DNA from: Chloroflexota bacterium
GTDB lineage: Bacteria > Chloroflexota > Dehalococcoidia > UBA6926
Length of the DNA stretch: 32,549 bases
Reading direction: 5' to 3'
NCBI GenBank assembly: GCA_026713485.1
Contig: JAPOOK010000005.1
Coordinates: 1-32,549 of the forward strand
Shown here: in pieces, positions 16,252-23,471 of the stretch
Numbering within the stretch: position 1 is the stretch's first letter
How the letters are laid out: the number at the start of each line of letters is the position of its first letter
The notes under the pieces: generated by a model
Databases searched by the model: none
What the model was told of the DNA's origin: nothing
What the model saw: the letters and a program-made list of their open reading frames with translations, nothing else
Made by a program: the position numbers and the translations under genes

Positions 16252-17010
16252 TCAGAATGTTCTGACGTCGTCGTCGAACCACTTCATGAGCAGAGTGTTT
16301 AGCGAACCGTCGTCTTTCATTTCTCCGATTGCGTTGTCCAGCTTGTCACGAAGTTCGTTGTCGTCTTCTCGCAGCCCGATTCCGATGCCCACGTCAAGGA
16401 ACACTGACGGCCCTACGGTAGCCAGTTCCCCTCCGTTCTGCCTGACGATCTCATGGGCGAATTCTTCGTCGAACATCGCGGCATCGACCTCGCCATCCAA
16501 GACGGCTTCAATGATCTCCTCTACGGAATCGAATTCGACCAGTTCAACACCGGCTCCCGACAGGTAGTCAGAGTGGACCGTCTGCACGAAGGCAGCGACA
16601 GTGCCGTTTACCACCTCATCAGTCGCGCCGCTCAGGGCAACGTAGAGTGACGGAGCAGGCGGGAAGTACGGCTGTGTGAAATCGATGATCTCGTCGCGCT
16701 CATCCGTGATACTCATGCCAGCCATGATGGTGTCGTACTGGTCGTCCAGGAGATTCGGAATGATCGTCTCCCAATCGTTGGTGACCCAGGTGCATTGGAG
16801 GTCGGCGCGGCGGCATAGCTCGTCGCCGAGTTCTCGTTCGAATCCGTCTACTTCACCTGCATCGTTGACAAAACTGAAGGGAGGATAAGCGCCTTCGGTT
16901 CCCATCCGGACGGTCTCTTCTTCCCCGTCACAGGCCACGGCAGCGACCGCTATGAGAGTGAGTACGCCTATGATCAACGCCGTAAGAGCCAGTCGATTTA
17001 GACGTGCCAT
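16252..17010 (-). CDS. Polar amino-acid-type solute-binding lipoprotein (SBP family 3), orphan
   Basis: Extracytoplasmic ligand-binding protein of the ABC uptake type. The signal peptide (1-26) ends in a lipobox AAVAC (Cys27). The SBP_bac_3 fold is recognisable from TEGAYPPFSFVNDAGEVDGF, then NDWETIIPNLLDDQYDTIMAG and MSITDERDEIIDFTQPYF, all standard motif text. At 252 residues it is full length. No permease or ATPase gene is adjacent, so the ligand route is unknown; orphan binding proteins may feed a distant transporter or act as sensors. ATG 17010 gives a natural signal peptide; ATG 17025 is possible. Neither has a strong ribosome binding site, and the upstream terminator leaves almost no room for a promoter. 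Confidence 0.85.
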   Translation of the reverse strand: MARLNRLALTALIIGVLTLIAVAAVACDGEEETVRMGTEGAYPPFSFVNDAGEVDGFERELGDELCRRADLQCTWVTNDWETIIPNLLDDQYDTIMAGMSITDERDEIIDFTQPYFPPAPSLYVALSGATDEVVNGTVAAFVQTVHSDYLSGAGVELVEFDSVEEIIEAVLDGEVDAAMFDEEFAHEIVRQNGGELATVGPSVFLDVGIGIGLREDDNELRDKLDNAIGEMKDDGSLNTLLMKWFDDDVRTF

Positions 17011-17033
17011 GTTGCTAATCACCATGTCAAAAG

Positions 17034-17093: not shown

Positions 17094-17942
17094 CTACCGA
17101 TTCTGCCAGTTGGGCGCTCGCTTCTCTGCGAAGGCGAGCGGGCCCTCCTTGGAGTCCTCGGAGCCGCCGACGATGCGGTTGACCCAGCCGCTGAACTGGT
17201 AATGCTCGTCGATGAACAGGTTGCGCCAGAACTGCGCGGTGGCCTTGACGCCCTGTACGGCGATCGGCGCGTTCTCTGCAATCATCTTGGCAATCTCAAC
17301 GGCGCGGGGCAGGAGCTGGTCAGGCTCGACAACCTCGTGAACGAGGCCGATGCGCAGGCACTCCGCCGGCGAGATGCGATCCGCCGTCAGGCCGATGTAC
17401 ATGGCCTCACCGACGGGAACGAGTCGCGGCATAAGGTGCATGCCGGAGCCGGGCATGATTCCTCGCTTCACCTCGAACAGGCCCATGTAGGCTTCCGTGG
17501 AGATGATGCGAATGTCACAGTCAATTGCGCGCTCAGTGCCGCCGCCAACCGCGAGGCCGTTGATGGCCGCGATGAAGGGCTTGGGCGAGCGGGCGAACTG
17601 GAAGAGGGAGCCCGTGGGGCCGACTCCGCCGCCGCCGGAGATCTGGAACAGGCGGCGCGCCCGCTCCTCTGCGTCGATCTCGCCTTTGTCGTAGGCCTCA
17701 TTGACCTCAGCGGTTCGCGTGTTGCGATCGGACATTTCGCGCAGGTCTGCGCCCGCGGAGAATGCGCGGCCGTTTCCGGTCACGATACCGACCCACATGT
17801 TGCGGTCGTTATTGAAATCATGGAGCGCAATCTGCAGCTCCTCGTTCATGCTTCCGCCCATGGCATTCAGCCGGTCAGGGCGATTCATGGTGAATGTCGC
17901 GTAGTGTTCCGCGTCATTCTTCTCATACAACAGTTCAGGCAT
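17094..17942 (-). CDS. Enoyl-CoA hydratase/isomerase family protein
   Basis: Crotonase-fold enzyme that would hydrate a trans-2-enoyl-CoA in beta-oxidation or a related pathway. The oxyanion-hole segment is GRAFSAGADL (59-68). Both catalytic glutamates of true hydratases are kept: Glu137 (GGGTERAIDCDIRI) and Glu157 (LFEVKRGIMPGSG). At 282 residues it is slightly longer than average because of a charged insert after residue 70. The ATG at 17942 has GGGAGGGA 6 nt upstream, which sets the start against an in-frame codon at 17960. A TTGACA-18-TAGTCT promoter is visible upstream. Together with etfBA and the membrane oxidoreductase it would fit fatty-acid or aromatic acyl-CoA oxidation; the substrate cannot be read from sequence. 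Confidence 0.9.
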   Translation of the reverse strand: MPELLYEKNDAEHYATFTMNRPDRLNAMGGSMNEELQIALHDFNNDRNMWVGIVTGNGRAFSAGADLREMSDRNTRTAEVNEAYDKGEIDAEERARRLFQISGGGGVGPTGSLFQFARSPKPFIAAINGLAVGGGTERAIDCDIRIISTEAYMGLFEVKRGIMPGSGMHLMPRLVPVGEAMYIGLTADRISPAECLRIGLVHEVVEPDQLLPRAVEIAKMIAENAPIAVQGVKATAQFWRNLFIDEHYQFSGWVNRIVGGSEDSKEGPLAFAEKRAPNWQNR

Positions 17943-17987
17943 TTGCTTCCCTCCCACCATGTGGATAGTGCTGCTTAAGGCGGACTA

Positions 17988-18017
17988 AGACTACGTTTCT
18001 GGCAGGTTTGATGTCAA
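17988..18017 (-). promoter_or_regulatory. Promoter of the enoyl-CoA hydratase gene, TTGACA-18-TAGTCT
   Basis: On the minus strand TTGACA (18017-18012) and TAGTCT (17993-17988) are 18 nt apart. The -35 abuts the left 36-bp direct repeat at 18018, and with it forms the dyad GTCAA-G-TTGAC (18013-18023). Confidence 0.6.
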
Positions 18018-18053
18018 GTTGACGGCGTGGGGGCGGGATAGAGTGGCTTTGAC
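18018..18053 (+). repeat. 36-bp direct repeat, left copy
   Basis: Matches 19209-19244 at 34 of 36 positions, with similarity ending abruptly on both sides. It begins GTTGACGGCGTGGG and ends GGCTTTGAC. The two copies bracket the RCC1-repeat lipoprotein gene. Confidence 0.9.
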
Positions 18054-18056
18054 GAA

Positions 18057-19085
18057 TCAGGGCACGCTAGGGACGTCGACCTGGCCGTAATCATTCTGTC
18101 CTTTGCAGATGACGGAGCCATTTTCACGGACTCCACACACGTGAGTTACCCCAACACTTACCGACCTGAATGTGCCTTCGAGGAAATCACCCTGGAATTC
18201 CTGCCAAACGAAAGTTCCGTTGTCCAATTCGGCCATGATAGGAGGCAGTTCACTCCTACCCCGGACAGGTGTAGCAACCGGCGGCTCATCCCTATATCCG
18301 TAGGAGGGTTCGAAACCCCAGCATCTCACTGTTTGATCCTCTAGCAAGCCGCAATCCGGGCTGCCGCCGCTGATCGAGGCAAACTTTGTTGTTGACAGCA
18401 TGGGTGGGTTGGTTCCCCAAACCCCCCAGCATGTAGCCATTCCCTCTTCGGTCAAGACGCAACCGTGTTGTGCTCCTAGGCTGACTTCACGATATCTGCC
18501 TTTCGGCTGCGCCGAATTGAGGAACCTCTCGCTACCCCAGCAAGTCAGCGCGCCCTCGTCCGTGATTCCGCAGGCGTTGTTCCAAGCTGCAGCAATAGAT
18601 TGAAAGACTCCTTCCGGAGGCTCAGATTGTCCAAGCCCATTGGCACCCCAGCATTGAACTGCGCCCTCATACGTCACACCGCAAGAGTGGAACAATCCCA
18701 CAACGACAGACTTGAATCTACCTTCTGGCGGTGAGGATTGCCCATGTTCGTTGTCTCCCCAACAGACAGCAGAGTTGGCAGCATTCAGCCCGCAAGTATG
18801 GTGCCTACCCGAACTGATGGACGTAAATGTGTCCTCTGGTGGCACTGATTGCCCGTGGGAGTTGAGCCCCCAACAGACGGCTGATCCATCCTGTAGGACT
18901 CCACAAGTATGGTACCAACCGGCGCTCGCCGAATCGAAGGCTGAGGGAACCTCGGTAACGCTTACGGTTGCCGGAGAACAGGCGCTCAGGATGAAGCTCA
19001 GTGCAATGGCAACTGCAATTAGCGCCGACGCCAAGACACGCTGCGCCCAGGGCGTAGCAGGGGCTGCTTCAATGTGGCCGACCAT
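18057..19085 (-). CDS. RCC1/BNR-like repeat lipoprotein
   Basis: A 342-residue secreted protein made of about seven beta-propeller-like repeats of roughly 37 residues. Each is built around 'HTCGVLQDGSAVCWGLNSHGQ' spacing: a CG pair, a xGxxxCWG stretch, then GQ and a PPEGxF turn, as in RCC1/BNR-type regulator-like repeats. The N-terminus has a hydrophobic signal segment (about 18-33) and lipobox LSAC (Cys36), so it is anchored outside the membrane. Cysteine pairs in each repeat suggest disulfides or metal-free stapling. GC is about 10 points lower than in its neighbours by a rough count. It lies between 36-bp direct repeats, which suggests insertion. GAGG precedes the ATG. Role unknown; similar bacterial proteins are usually surface or adhesion-type, which is only family-level inference. 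Confidence 0.85.
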   Translation of the reverse strand: MVGHIEAAPATPWAQRVLASALIAVAIALSFILSACSPATVSVTEVPSAFDSASAGWYHTCGVLQDGSAVCWGLNSHGQSVPPEDTFTSISSGRHHTCGLNAANSAVCWGDNEHGQSSPPEGRFKSVVVGLFHSCGVTYEGAVQCWGANGLGQSEPPEGVFQSIAAAWNNACGITDEGALTCWGSERFLNSAQPKGRYREVSLGAQHGCVLTEEGMATCWGVWGTNPPMLSTTKFASISGGSPDCGLLEDQTVRCWGFEPSYGYRDEPPVATPVRGRSELPPIMAELDNGTFVWQEFQGDFLEGTFRSVSVGVTHVCGVRENGSVICKGQNDYGQVDVPSVP

Positions 19086-19208
19086 TTCTTACATTACCTC
19101 TTTCGAAGACTGTCGAGCGCGATGCTTGTCGACCATGTGTGACTCCATTACATGGAATCGGGCGAATCGCAGCTCAATTCAGCGCATCCTACTTTTCTGG
19201 GTGCGTGT

Positions 19209-19244
19209 GTTGACAGCGTGGGGGCGGGATAGAGTGACTTTGAC
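19209..19244 (+). repeat. 36-bp direct repeat, right copy
   Basis: Second copy of the 18018-18053 repeat, differing only at two G/A positions. Its last bases supply most of the -35 of the FBP aldolase/phosphatase promoter. The 123 bases between it and the RCC1 ATG hold only a small dyad TCCAT-TAC-ATGGA (19144-19156). Confidence 0.9.
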
Positions 19245-19269
19245 ATGATTCGCGCGTGACTGGTAGGGT
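19240..19269 (+). promoter_or_regulatory. Candidate promoter of the FBP aldolase/phosphatase gene
   Basis: TTGACA (19240-19245), an 18-nt spacer and TAGGGT (19264-19269). A start near 19276 gives a leader of about 115 nt that opens with a hairpin, GGGCTT-GGCT-AAGCCC (19274-19289). The long leader may be regulatory; no riboswitch class is recognised. Confidence 0.45.
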
Positions 19270-19390: not shown

Positions 19391-20527
19391 ATGCGCATGA
19401 CACTTTCAGCCATCAAAGCGGATGTAGGCTCAATCGGCGGCCACACAAGGCCGACGGACGAGATGTTGGACAGAGTGCGTTCGGACGTGCAGTCCGCCAT
19501 TGATCGAGGACTGCTCATCGATGGCTACGTGTTCCACGTGGGCGATGACATCGCCATCATCATGTCCCACACGCGGGGCAAGGACGACACAGAGATTCAC
19601 CAATTTGCATGGGACAGCTTCCTGGCGGCGACGGCCATTGCGCAGGAGTACGGGCTGTATGGCGCAGGTCAGGACCTGTTGGTGGACGCGCCCTCCGGGA
19701 ATGTGCGTGGGGCAGGGCCGGGCGTGGCCGAGGTGGAGTTCGAGCACGATCCTGTGACGACCAACAACGCGCGCTCTGCGGAGTCGTTCATGATCTTCGC
19801 GGCAGACAAATGCGGGCCGGGCGCGTACAACCTGCCGCTGTTCCTCGGGTTTGCCGACCCGATGTATTGCGCGGGGCTCATGTTGCCGCGCATGATCCAG
19901 GGCTTTGATTTCAACATCATCGATATGAACAACACCGGTGGCGACAGCATCCTGACACTTCATGCGCCGGAAGACTACTACCAGCTCACTGTGCTGCTGC
20001 GCGACAACGAGCGTTTCGGCATCGAGAGCATCTCGTCGCGTTCTTATGACGGGCAGGATGCAGTGTCTGTTTCCGCACAGCGTCTTCACAACATTGCCGG
20101 CACGTACACAGGCAAGGATGACCCCATCGCCATCGTGCGGAACCAGGGCATATTCCCCGCGCCGGAGGAGGTCCTTTCGACGTTCACGAAGGCGCACTAC
20201 ATTGGCGGCGACGCTCGCGGCTCACACAACATGCCGCTGATGCCGGTGCCAATGAACACGCCGGTGACCGGGCCGTATTGCCTGCCGATTGTTGAGTCGC
20301 TTGGCTTCTCAATGAACGCTGCGGGCAAGTTCTCGGCCAACTATGTCGATTTCTTCGACAATCCTGCGTGGGACCTGGTGCGGAACAAGGCACAGGAAAA
20401 GGCGCTGTACATGCGGGACCAGGGCTGGTCCGGTCCTGCGATGCTGCCGTACACCGAGCTGGAGTACGGCGGTTTCCGCGACATCGTGACAGGCCTCGAG
20501 GAGCGCTTCGCTTACAAGGCCGAGTAG
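19391..20527 (+). CDS. fbp: Fructose-1,6-bisphosphate aldolase/phosphatase (class V FBPase)
   Basis: Bifunctional gluconeogenic enzyme of the archaeal type: it condenses triose phosphates to fructose 1,6-bisphosphate and then hydrolyses it to fructose 6-phosphate. The 379-residue protein begins MTLSAIKADVGSIGGH, the family opening with metal-binding Asp11 and His18. The switching active-site text YTGKDDPIAIVRNQG carries Tyr239, the Schiff-base Lys242 and metal ligands Asp243/Asp244. EFEHDP, DMNNTGGD and MPVPMNTPVTGPYC are further family segments. The ATG at 19391 has a GGGGGG ribosome site 8-10 nt upstream and the true family N-terminus; the frame stays open to 19256 but the extra residues are not family-like. 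It is a single gene between a repeat cassette and the moa genes. Confidence 0.95.
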   Translation: MRMTLSAIKADVGSIGGHTRPTDEMLDRVRSDVQSAIDRGLLIDGYVFHVGDDIAIIMSHTRGKDDTEIHQFAWDSFLAATAIAQEYGLYGAGQDLLVDAPSGNVRGAGPGVAEVEFEHDPVTTNNARSAESFMIFAADKCGPGAYNLPLFLGFADPMYCAGLMLPRMIQGFDFNIIDMNNTGGDSILTLHAPEDYYQLTVLLRDNERFGIESISSRSYDGQDAVSVSAQRLHNIAGTYTGKDDPIAIVRNQGIFPAPEEVLSTFTKAHYIGGDARGSHNMPLMPVPMNTPVTGPYCLPIVESLGFSMNAAGKFSANYVDFFDNPAWDLVRNKAQEKALYMRDQGWSGPAMLPYTELEYGGFRDIVTGLEERFAYKAE

Positions 20528-20530
20528 TTT

Positions 20531-20690
20531 TCTCGGTTCGCGATTAGCGTCGGTTGGCCTGAGTAGTCCGACTTCCGCGTTCTGGCGCCGCAAGCGATTA
20601 TGCTTTTCCGGATTTCCGGTTCGCGATCAGCGTTGGTGGGTCTGAGTAGTTCGGCTTCCGCGTTCCGGCGCCGCAAGCGCTTGCACATCC
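20531..20690 (+). repeat. Tandem copies R1 and R2 of an intergenic repeat (83-bp period)
   Basis: R1 (about 20531-20603) and R2 (about 20614-20690) start with GGTTCGCGAT at 20535 and 20618, continue through CTGAGTAGT and share GCGCCGCAAGCG. Each ends in an imperfect dyad around GGCGCC. A diverged third copy lies at 31023-31073. The repeats fill most of the 204-base gap between FBP aldolase/phosphatase and rdgB. Confidence 0.8.
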
Positions 20691-22914: not shown

Positions 22915-22918
22915 GGAA

Positions 22919-23134
22919 TCAGCCCGCTTTGATGCTGCGCAGAGGCAGGTCCGCGGTTTCGAGCGTGGCCAAATCAAGGCGCTCAGACGCGTGGTCGATA
23001 TCGAAACCGACAACGCCGCCGTCGGCGTCAAGATCGACGTTCAGCCCCTGAGTGACTTCTATCGTCTCCGCGCCCGGCCTAGTCTTGAACTCCACGTAGA
23101 GGCTGTCGGTCTCCGGGTAGTAATGAAGTTTCAT
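22919..23134 (-). CDS. DUF2283 protein
   Basis: A 71-residue protein with the DUF2283 pattern: MKLHYYPETDSLYVEFK, then an ETIEVTQGLNVDLDADGGVVGFDI stretch (strand, turn, strand) and a short C-terminal helix-strand. Proteins of this family are small beta-rich and occur beside DUF4258-type genes. Here the start overlaps the stop of such a gene by 4 nt (ATGA at 23131-23134), so the two are translated together. A toxin-antitoxin pair is a possible role but is inference. The gene is convergent with moaC, 4 nt away. Confidence 0.8.
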   Translation of the reverse strand: MKLHYYPETDSLYVEFKTRPGAETIEVTQGLNVDLDADGGVVGFDIDHASERLDLATLETADLPLRSIKAG

Positions 23135-23385
23135 TCGTGATCCTCCTTCCGAAAGCCCCGATCAAAGAATGCGTTATGAATAGTTTCGCCGTCTTCCAAG
23201 GTTACCACTCGCAAGTAGCGAGGACGGGATTCACCGGGAGCAGTAACTTCCCCCCAGAAGCGCAGCCGTCCGTCGGCTTGATGCTCCTGATGGATTGGCG
23301 ATGCGATGACCTGAGCGCACCATTCCAACTCGATATAGGGCCGCTTCCGACGAACCTGCTCCTCAAAATAGCGAGTTGTCTTCAT
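23131..23385 (-). CDS. DUF4258-like small protein, partner of DUF2283
   Basis: An 84-residue basic protein: RYFEEQVRRKRPYIELEWC at the start, then RLRFWGEVTAPG, RYLRVVTLEDGETIHNAFFDRGF at the end. The strand-strand pattern and its coupling to a DUF2283 gene resemble DUF4258-type proteins, which have been proposed as RelE-like toxins. Catalytic residues of a known toxin cannot be picked out with confidence. Its stop overlaps the DUF2283 start. The start ATG 23385 has no strong ribosome site. I am fairly sure it is a gene, less sure about the family name. Confidence 0.55.
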   Translation of the reverse strand: MKTTRYFEEQVRRKRPYIELEWCAQVIASPIHQEHQADGRLRFWGEVTAPGESRPRYLRVVTLEDGETIHNAFFDRGFRKEDHE

Positions 23386-23471
23386 GTGCCATTGTCTTGA
23401 TTACTCTGGGGCTTACAAGAGCCCTCGTATCGTTTCCTGATCGCACAGGCTTTCGAGGGGAAGCTGGAATT

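Follow-up and report, generated by a model that had tools for sequence, protein, structure and literature searches.

An RCC1-repeat lipoprotein gene inserted between two divergent promoters of a Dehalococcoidia genome with duplication of the 36-bp promoter spacer

Restriction-modification (RM) genes of bacteria are described as inserting with long and variable target duplications, on the order of 100 bp (PMC3874152, PMC1643837, PMC3031569). In the accounts drawn on here, the long target duplication (Nobusato et al. 2000, Gene 259:99; Furuta et al. 2010) first came to light when two Helicobacter strains were compared, and RM cargo appears as a frequent association and not as a definition of the process. 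The Helicobacter pylori insertions, as far as these accounts go, place a single gene or a gene pair between conserved neighbours, within a long direct target duplication of variable length and with no transposase, the empty site being present in a close relative. Related observations come from plants: on either side of transposed Arabidopsis genes there are direct repeats with homology to the target site (PMC2869330).

The locus described here belongs to a Dehalococcoidia metagenome-assembled genome (MAG) of 1.91 Mb in 72 contigs (G000), which we take to be of sponge origin from the isolate names of its congeners and general knowledge. The window, that is, the whole stretch of DNA analysed (32,549 nucleotides), was compared with the congeners SB0661_bin_39 (G002) and Plut_88869 (G001) and with a member of the sister genus (G004), with one genome per species in the comparison. 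The features around the insertion are the following:

17094..17960, minus strand: enoyl-CoA hydratase/isomerase gene, left neighbour (Pfam ECH_1; orthologues in G001, G002 and G004)
17988..18017, minus strand: hydratase promoter TTGACA-N18-TAGTCT, adjoining copy 1, kept in G001 and G002
18018..18053, plus strand: copy 1 of the target duplication, hydratase side, GTTGACGGCGTGGGGGCGGGATAGAGTGGCTTTGAC, 34/36 identical to copy 2; left flank collinear with the G002 empty site
18054..19208, no strand: inserted segment of 1,155 bp, missing from all relatives searched, G001 and G002 among them; a precise gap in G002
18057..19085, minus strand: RCC1-repeat lipoprotein gene, 342 aa (Pfam RCC1_2 and translation; PDB relatives including BLIP-II and ACR4)
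19086..19208, minus strand: 5' flank that the insert brings along with the RCC1 gene (delimited by comparison with G002)
19209..19244, plus strand: copy 2 of the target duplication, fbp side, GTTGACAGCGTGGGGGCGGGATAGAGTGACTTTGAC; right flank collinear with the G002 empty site, last five bases forming part of the fbp -35 box
19240..19269, plus strand: fbp promoter TTGACA-N18-TAGGGT, with the -35 box straddling the right end of copy 2, kept in G001 and G002
19391..20527, plus strand: fructose-1,6-bisphosphate aldolase/phosphatase (fbp) gene, right neighbour (Pfam FBPase_3; orthologues in G001, G002 and G004)

The direct repeat pair (18018-18053 and 19209-19244) has a spacing of 1,191 bp, and both its coordinates and its 34/36 identity are exactly those given by a first-pass annotation of this DNA. 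A degenerate form of the repeat matches the window twice, at the two copies, and none of 100 shuffles. With up to three mismatches, these are also the two matches in the entire 1.91-Mb, 72-contig genome, and a pattern search at the same tolerance shows the 36-mer to be absent from 59 related genomes; the exact repeat has no match in viral contigs. A dispersed element is thereby ruled out, and with it the prospect, raised by the annotation as an argument against its own reading, of a 36-mer widespread in places without RCC1 genes. The repeat was also considered as a pair of functional promoters, which was rejected because the hexamers inside the 36 bp are not kept in G002 and the true promoters lie at the repeat edges.

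The decisive comparison is with G002, in which the DNA from the hydratase gene to fbp is uninterrupted, lacks the RCC1 gene and holds one homologue of the 36-bp unit, GTTGACGGCGTATCGGCGCGGCGCGTCCGCTTTGAC. On the left this homologue is flanked as copy 1 is (ATGTCAA) and on the right as copy 2 is (ATGGTTTGCGCGTGACTGATAGGGTGAA), with collinearity on both sides. In G004 the hydratase and fbp genes are likewise divergent neighbours, separated by about 0.3 kb, and the RCC1 gene is absent. The first-pass annotation had read the locus as a cassette that inserted and duplicated the 36 bp, had asked for a relative with a single copy and no RCC1 gene, and had held that an arrangement fixed in all relatives would speak against it; G002 supplies the empty site, so that the arrangement is not fixed and the proposed insertion is borne out. 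The collinearity of both flanks also bears on the possibility that the assembly joined an unrelated contig, which is conceivable for a metagenome assembly in 72 contigs. Both joins would have needed an identical 36-bp site, the two copies are not identical (two differing positions), and assembly words are usually longer than 36 bp, all of which makes such an artefact highly improbable.

The order of events can be read from the repeats themselves. Copies 1 and 2 differ from each other at 2 of 36 positions, against 12/36 (copy 1) and 14/36 (copy 2) relative to the G002 orthologue (Fisher p 0.006 versus the orthologous 36-mer; p 0.02 versus flanking intergenic DNA), so the duplication is younger than the split from G002. 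Had the RCC1 gene and its repeats been ancestral to the genus, recombination between the 36-bp repeats in G002 would have removed the gene with one repeat and left precisely the single-copy site seen there. Nevertheless, copies that are 34/36 alike and only 22-24/36 identical to G002 are the opposite of what an old duplication would give, unless gene conversion intervened; G004 is also without the gene and G001 has a different gene in the gap. Ancestral presence followed by loss is therefore considered unlikely. The annotation's other reading, that the RCC1 gene can be lost by recombination between its repeats, may also hold for the window genome.

The duplicated unit is bordered by the neighbouring promoters. 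A scan of the whole window for the consensus TTGACA-N17-19-TAnnnT returned two promoters only, those of the hydratase gene and fbp, whose 18-bp spacers are preserved in three species (the window genome, G001 and G002). The 36-bp unit starts at the base beside the hydratase -35 box, and its last base is the fifth of the fbp -35 box, meaning that it corresponds to the space between the two divergent promoters, both of which survive the insertion. The insertion is tolerated because duplication of the spacer leaves the promoters of both neighbours intact. The RCC1 gene has in turn retained its own 5' flank.

Other differences from the congeners were observed in the window. Between fbp and Ham1 (20534-20682) there is a 66-bp tandem duplication, 88% identical and with an 83-bp period, which is absent from G002 and G001. 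In addition, about 0.55 kb of DNA that both congeners lack (22915-23469) forms a second insertion, with two small overlapping ORFs on the minus strand, the downstream one coding for a DUF2283 protein; the pair is possibly toxin-antitoxin-like, and no long direct repeat is present at the ends of this insertion.

The RCC1 gene is the sole ORF of the 1,155-bp insert and is intact. Its stop codon lies 3 bp from copy 1, and 123 bp of 5' flank separate its start codon from copy 2. This flank presumably holds the promoter of the gene, with promoter scans finding no consensus promoter in 19086..19208. The product matches Pfam RCC1_2 above the curated cut-off (E 9e-47, 156 bits versus a cut-off of 22, six repeats) and shows about seven repeats of ~37 aa with paired cysteines, preceded by a signal peptide and a lipobox (LSAC), both judged by eye from the translation. 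The annotation's claim of a lower GC content holds for the gene itself (56.5%), with the contrast overstated: most neighbours are at 60-63% and not at 67-70%, and the solute-binding gene at 16252-17025 has 55.9%. The difference is clearer in GC3, which is 0.57 for the RCC1 gene versus 0.66-0.81 for the neighbours, most of them lying at 0.71-0.81.

By sequence, the relatives of solved structure are the BLIP-II inhibitor and the plant proteins ACR4 and UVR8. The likeness to BLIP-II, to bacterial RCC1-repeat proteins and to RCC1/RLD proteins lies in the RCC1_2 repeats (GxxHTCxL..G.V.CWG.N..GQ), which cover most of the window protein. BLIP-II differs in being a secreted beta-lactamase inhibitor, whereas the window protein has a lipobox, and beta-lactamase inhibition is unsupported for it. 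A single-sequence structure model (pLDDT 40.6) was too poor to judge a seven-bladed beta-propeller fold. Its sequence makes an extracytoplasmic beta-propeller lipoprotein the probable product, one of the type termed eukaryotic-like proteins in sponge symbionts. Sponge-symbiont Chloroflexi have been reported with eukaryotic-like repeat proteins of the ankyrin, TPR and LRR types, RCC1 not being mentioned (PMC6306507). By analogy, a role of the RCC1 protein at the cell surface in host contact is plausible.

The distribution of RCC1 relatives in the class is patchy (41 of 393 genomes), the best being 45-50% identical over parts. A DNA search of 60 relatives with the insert matched the insert itself and a 38-bp stretch on contig C71 of the window genome; the latter belongs to an unrelated ORF, where it codes for part of a transmembrane segment, and the match is probably due to chance. 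A viral or plasmid origin of the cargo was rejected, as the gene has no match in IMG/VR and its phage and plasmid matches are distant (25-31%). G002 has an RCC1-repeat gene elsewhere, on its contig C25 (C25:10067-10879; L073 4067-4880), about 50-58% identical to the window gene, with repeats lying in two reading frames, so it may be frameshifted or misassembled. Movement of the window gene from a locus of this type was discarded, the identity being about 50%.

The sharp ends, the single gene, the precise duplication and the empty site would also suit a non-autonomous mobile element whose movement depends on a transposase or tyrosine recombinase acting in trans, with a 36-bp site that the enzyme makes or uses. 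A Pfam search found no transposase in the insert, as the first-pass annotation had stated, and its ends have no terminal inverted repeats above shuffles. Neither the insert nor the repeat pair recurs elsewhere in the genome, so that neither the ends nor the copy number expected of a transposon or MITE-like element is found; moreover, nothing similar occurs in viral contigs, and the event in G001, described below, has a much longer duplication. We consider an element of this kind improbable. A comparably low probability is given to a circular molecule, bearing the RCC1 gene together with one 36-bp copy, that integrated at the homologous spacer through a single crossover and could excise and reinsert there. 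Such integration would give an identical product and has been proposed for transposed plant genes (PMC2869330). It presupposes, however, a gene already joined to the target-specific sequence, and would explain strain-to-strain spread but not the first insertion; in addition, 36 bp is short for homologous recombination.

The same gap is occupied differently in G001, where another gene lies between the hydratase gene (contig C132) and fbp (contig C211). This gene runs in the fbp direction and codes for an NPPF-type DNA methylase with a weak Eco57I match:

L196 4065-5238 (C132) and L105 1-1934 (C211): methylase locus of G001

The gene is split over the two contigs, C132 holding its first 318 codons and C211 its last 585. 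In G002 a single continuous 981-aa gene aligns with both fragments, 66 codons being missing at the contig gap, which argues strongly that C132 and C211 join through the methylase gene. The methylase is flanked by a direct duplication of ~133 bp of the fbp promoter/leader (C132 from 4076 and L105 from 1768; identity 126/140, the homology fading beyond about 133 bp). The RCC1 and methylase events have the gap and the type of product in common, but not the cargo, its orientation, the length of the duplication or the exact cut points. The methylase insertion appears to be a second, independent event of the type that brought in the RCC1 gene.

These features place the locus among insertions with long target duplication, a known type of event, here in a new lineage and with a new cargo. 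Direct duplications longer than those of transposons flank the inserted DNA on both sides (36 bp in the window, ~133 bp in G001), the target is present in single copy without the insert in G002, the duplication length varies, and neither transposase nor terminal inverted repeats are found. The variable repeat lengths, the lack of terminal inverted repeats and transposase, and the different cargo argue against a dedicated transposon. The first-pass annotation had supposed a passenger or an unknown mechanism; its observation that a transposase is missing stands, although the literature does offer a precedent. With the Helicobacter pylori RM insertions, as described, the locus shares the conserved neighbours, the long duplication, the empty site and the variable length, and in G001 the cargo is also a methylase. 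It differs from them in the RCC1 lipoprotein cargo, which is not the usual RM cargo (the G001 gene being a weak Eco57I-like methylase), in a duplication of 36 bp versus the order of 100 bp (PMC3874152), and in the Dehalococcoidia MAG host. The Arabidopsis genes resemble it in having target-derived direct repeats around a moved non-transposon gene, and differ in being plant nuclear genes for which the insertion of circles from tandem arrays was the proposed mechanism (PMC2869330).

No other gene cassette of this kind was found in 312 kb of sampled stretches of the window genome, which indicates that the process is not frequent there. What the survey did turn up was limited to a CRISPR array, paralogous genes, repeats within large genes and one REP-like pair. 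The CRISPR array, on contig C7 (L214 1-5221), has twelve 36-bp repeats and 30-bp spacers and is accompanied by Cas2, Cas1 and a 1,041-aa Cas9. On C18 (L225 2008-4725) there is a tandem gene duplication of ~1.6 kb, with pieces that are about 85-90% identical. C17 (L224 207-650) holds a REP-like palindromic element (CCCGTCATTCCGGCGAAGGCCGGAATCC) in two copies, and a similar element follows fbp in G002.

The equality between the length of the duplication and that of the CRISPR repeat raises the question of off-target integration by the type II Cas1-Cas2 of this genome, with two cuts one repeat length (36 bp) apart and capture of a whole gene. Among the seven relatives searched, the window genome alone has Cas1 and a CRISPR array (36-bp repeats, 30-bp spacers), Cas1 not being found in the six related genomes, and type II-A Cas1-Cas2 has off-target integration sites that resemble the leader-repeat junction (PMC6895254). 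Copy 1 begins with GTTG, like the CRISPR repeat, and matches it at 16/36 positions, in the top 2% of sampled 36-mers. Yet this is a weak match, spotted in hindsight, and copy 2 reaches only 14/36. Normal inserts of the enzyme are spacers of ~30 bp, about 40 times shorter than the 1,155 bp inserted here, and G001, in which no Cas1 was found, has the same type of event with ~133 bp. The 36-bp length fits a CRISPR integration product, while the insert size and the 14-16/36 similarity do not, and this origin seems very unlikely.

The reading that we consider likely as a whole is that the RCC1 stretch was inserted after the split from G002, with duplication of the spacer, through an illegitimate join made during replication or repair. 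As the comparison with G002 shows, the 1,155-bp stretch entered the 36-bp spacer between the divergent promoters, the entire spacer being duplicated in the process. Most likely, a replication- or repair-based join pasted in the foreign gene and copying resumed upstream of the point at which it had left. Template switching could have done this, as could a widely staggered break that was filled in and closed around captured DNA. The relatives in the class, no closer than the partial matches noted above (45-50%), include no donor of the RCC1 gene against which microhomology at the junctions could be read. Ku was not found in the seven genomes searched (MAGs 69-94% complete; Bacillus subtilis as positive control), which disfavours canonical end joining and weakens the break-filling version of the proposed join.

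The empty site and the dated duplication indicate that single genes enter the genomes of uncultured, presumably sponge-associated Dehalococcoidia by long target duplication, without a mobile element. A process known mainly from the RM genes of Helicobacter is thereby extended to a gene for a probable surface protein. Two of the three species have what appear to be independent insertions in this one gap between divergent promoters, which makes it a candidate site for studying how such insertions originate and why they are tolerated.
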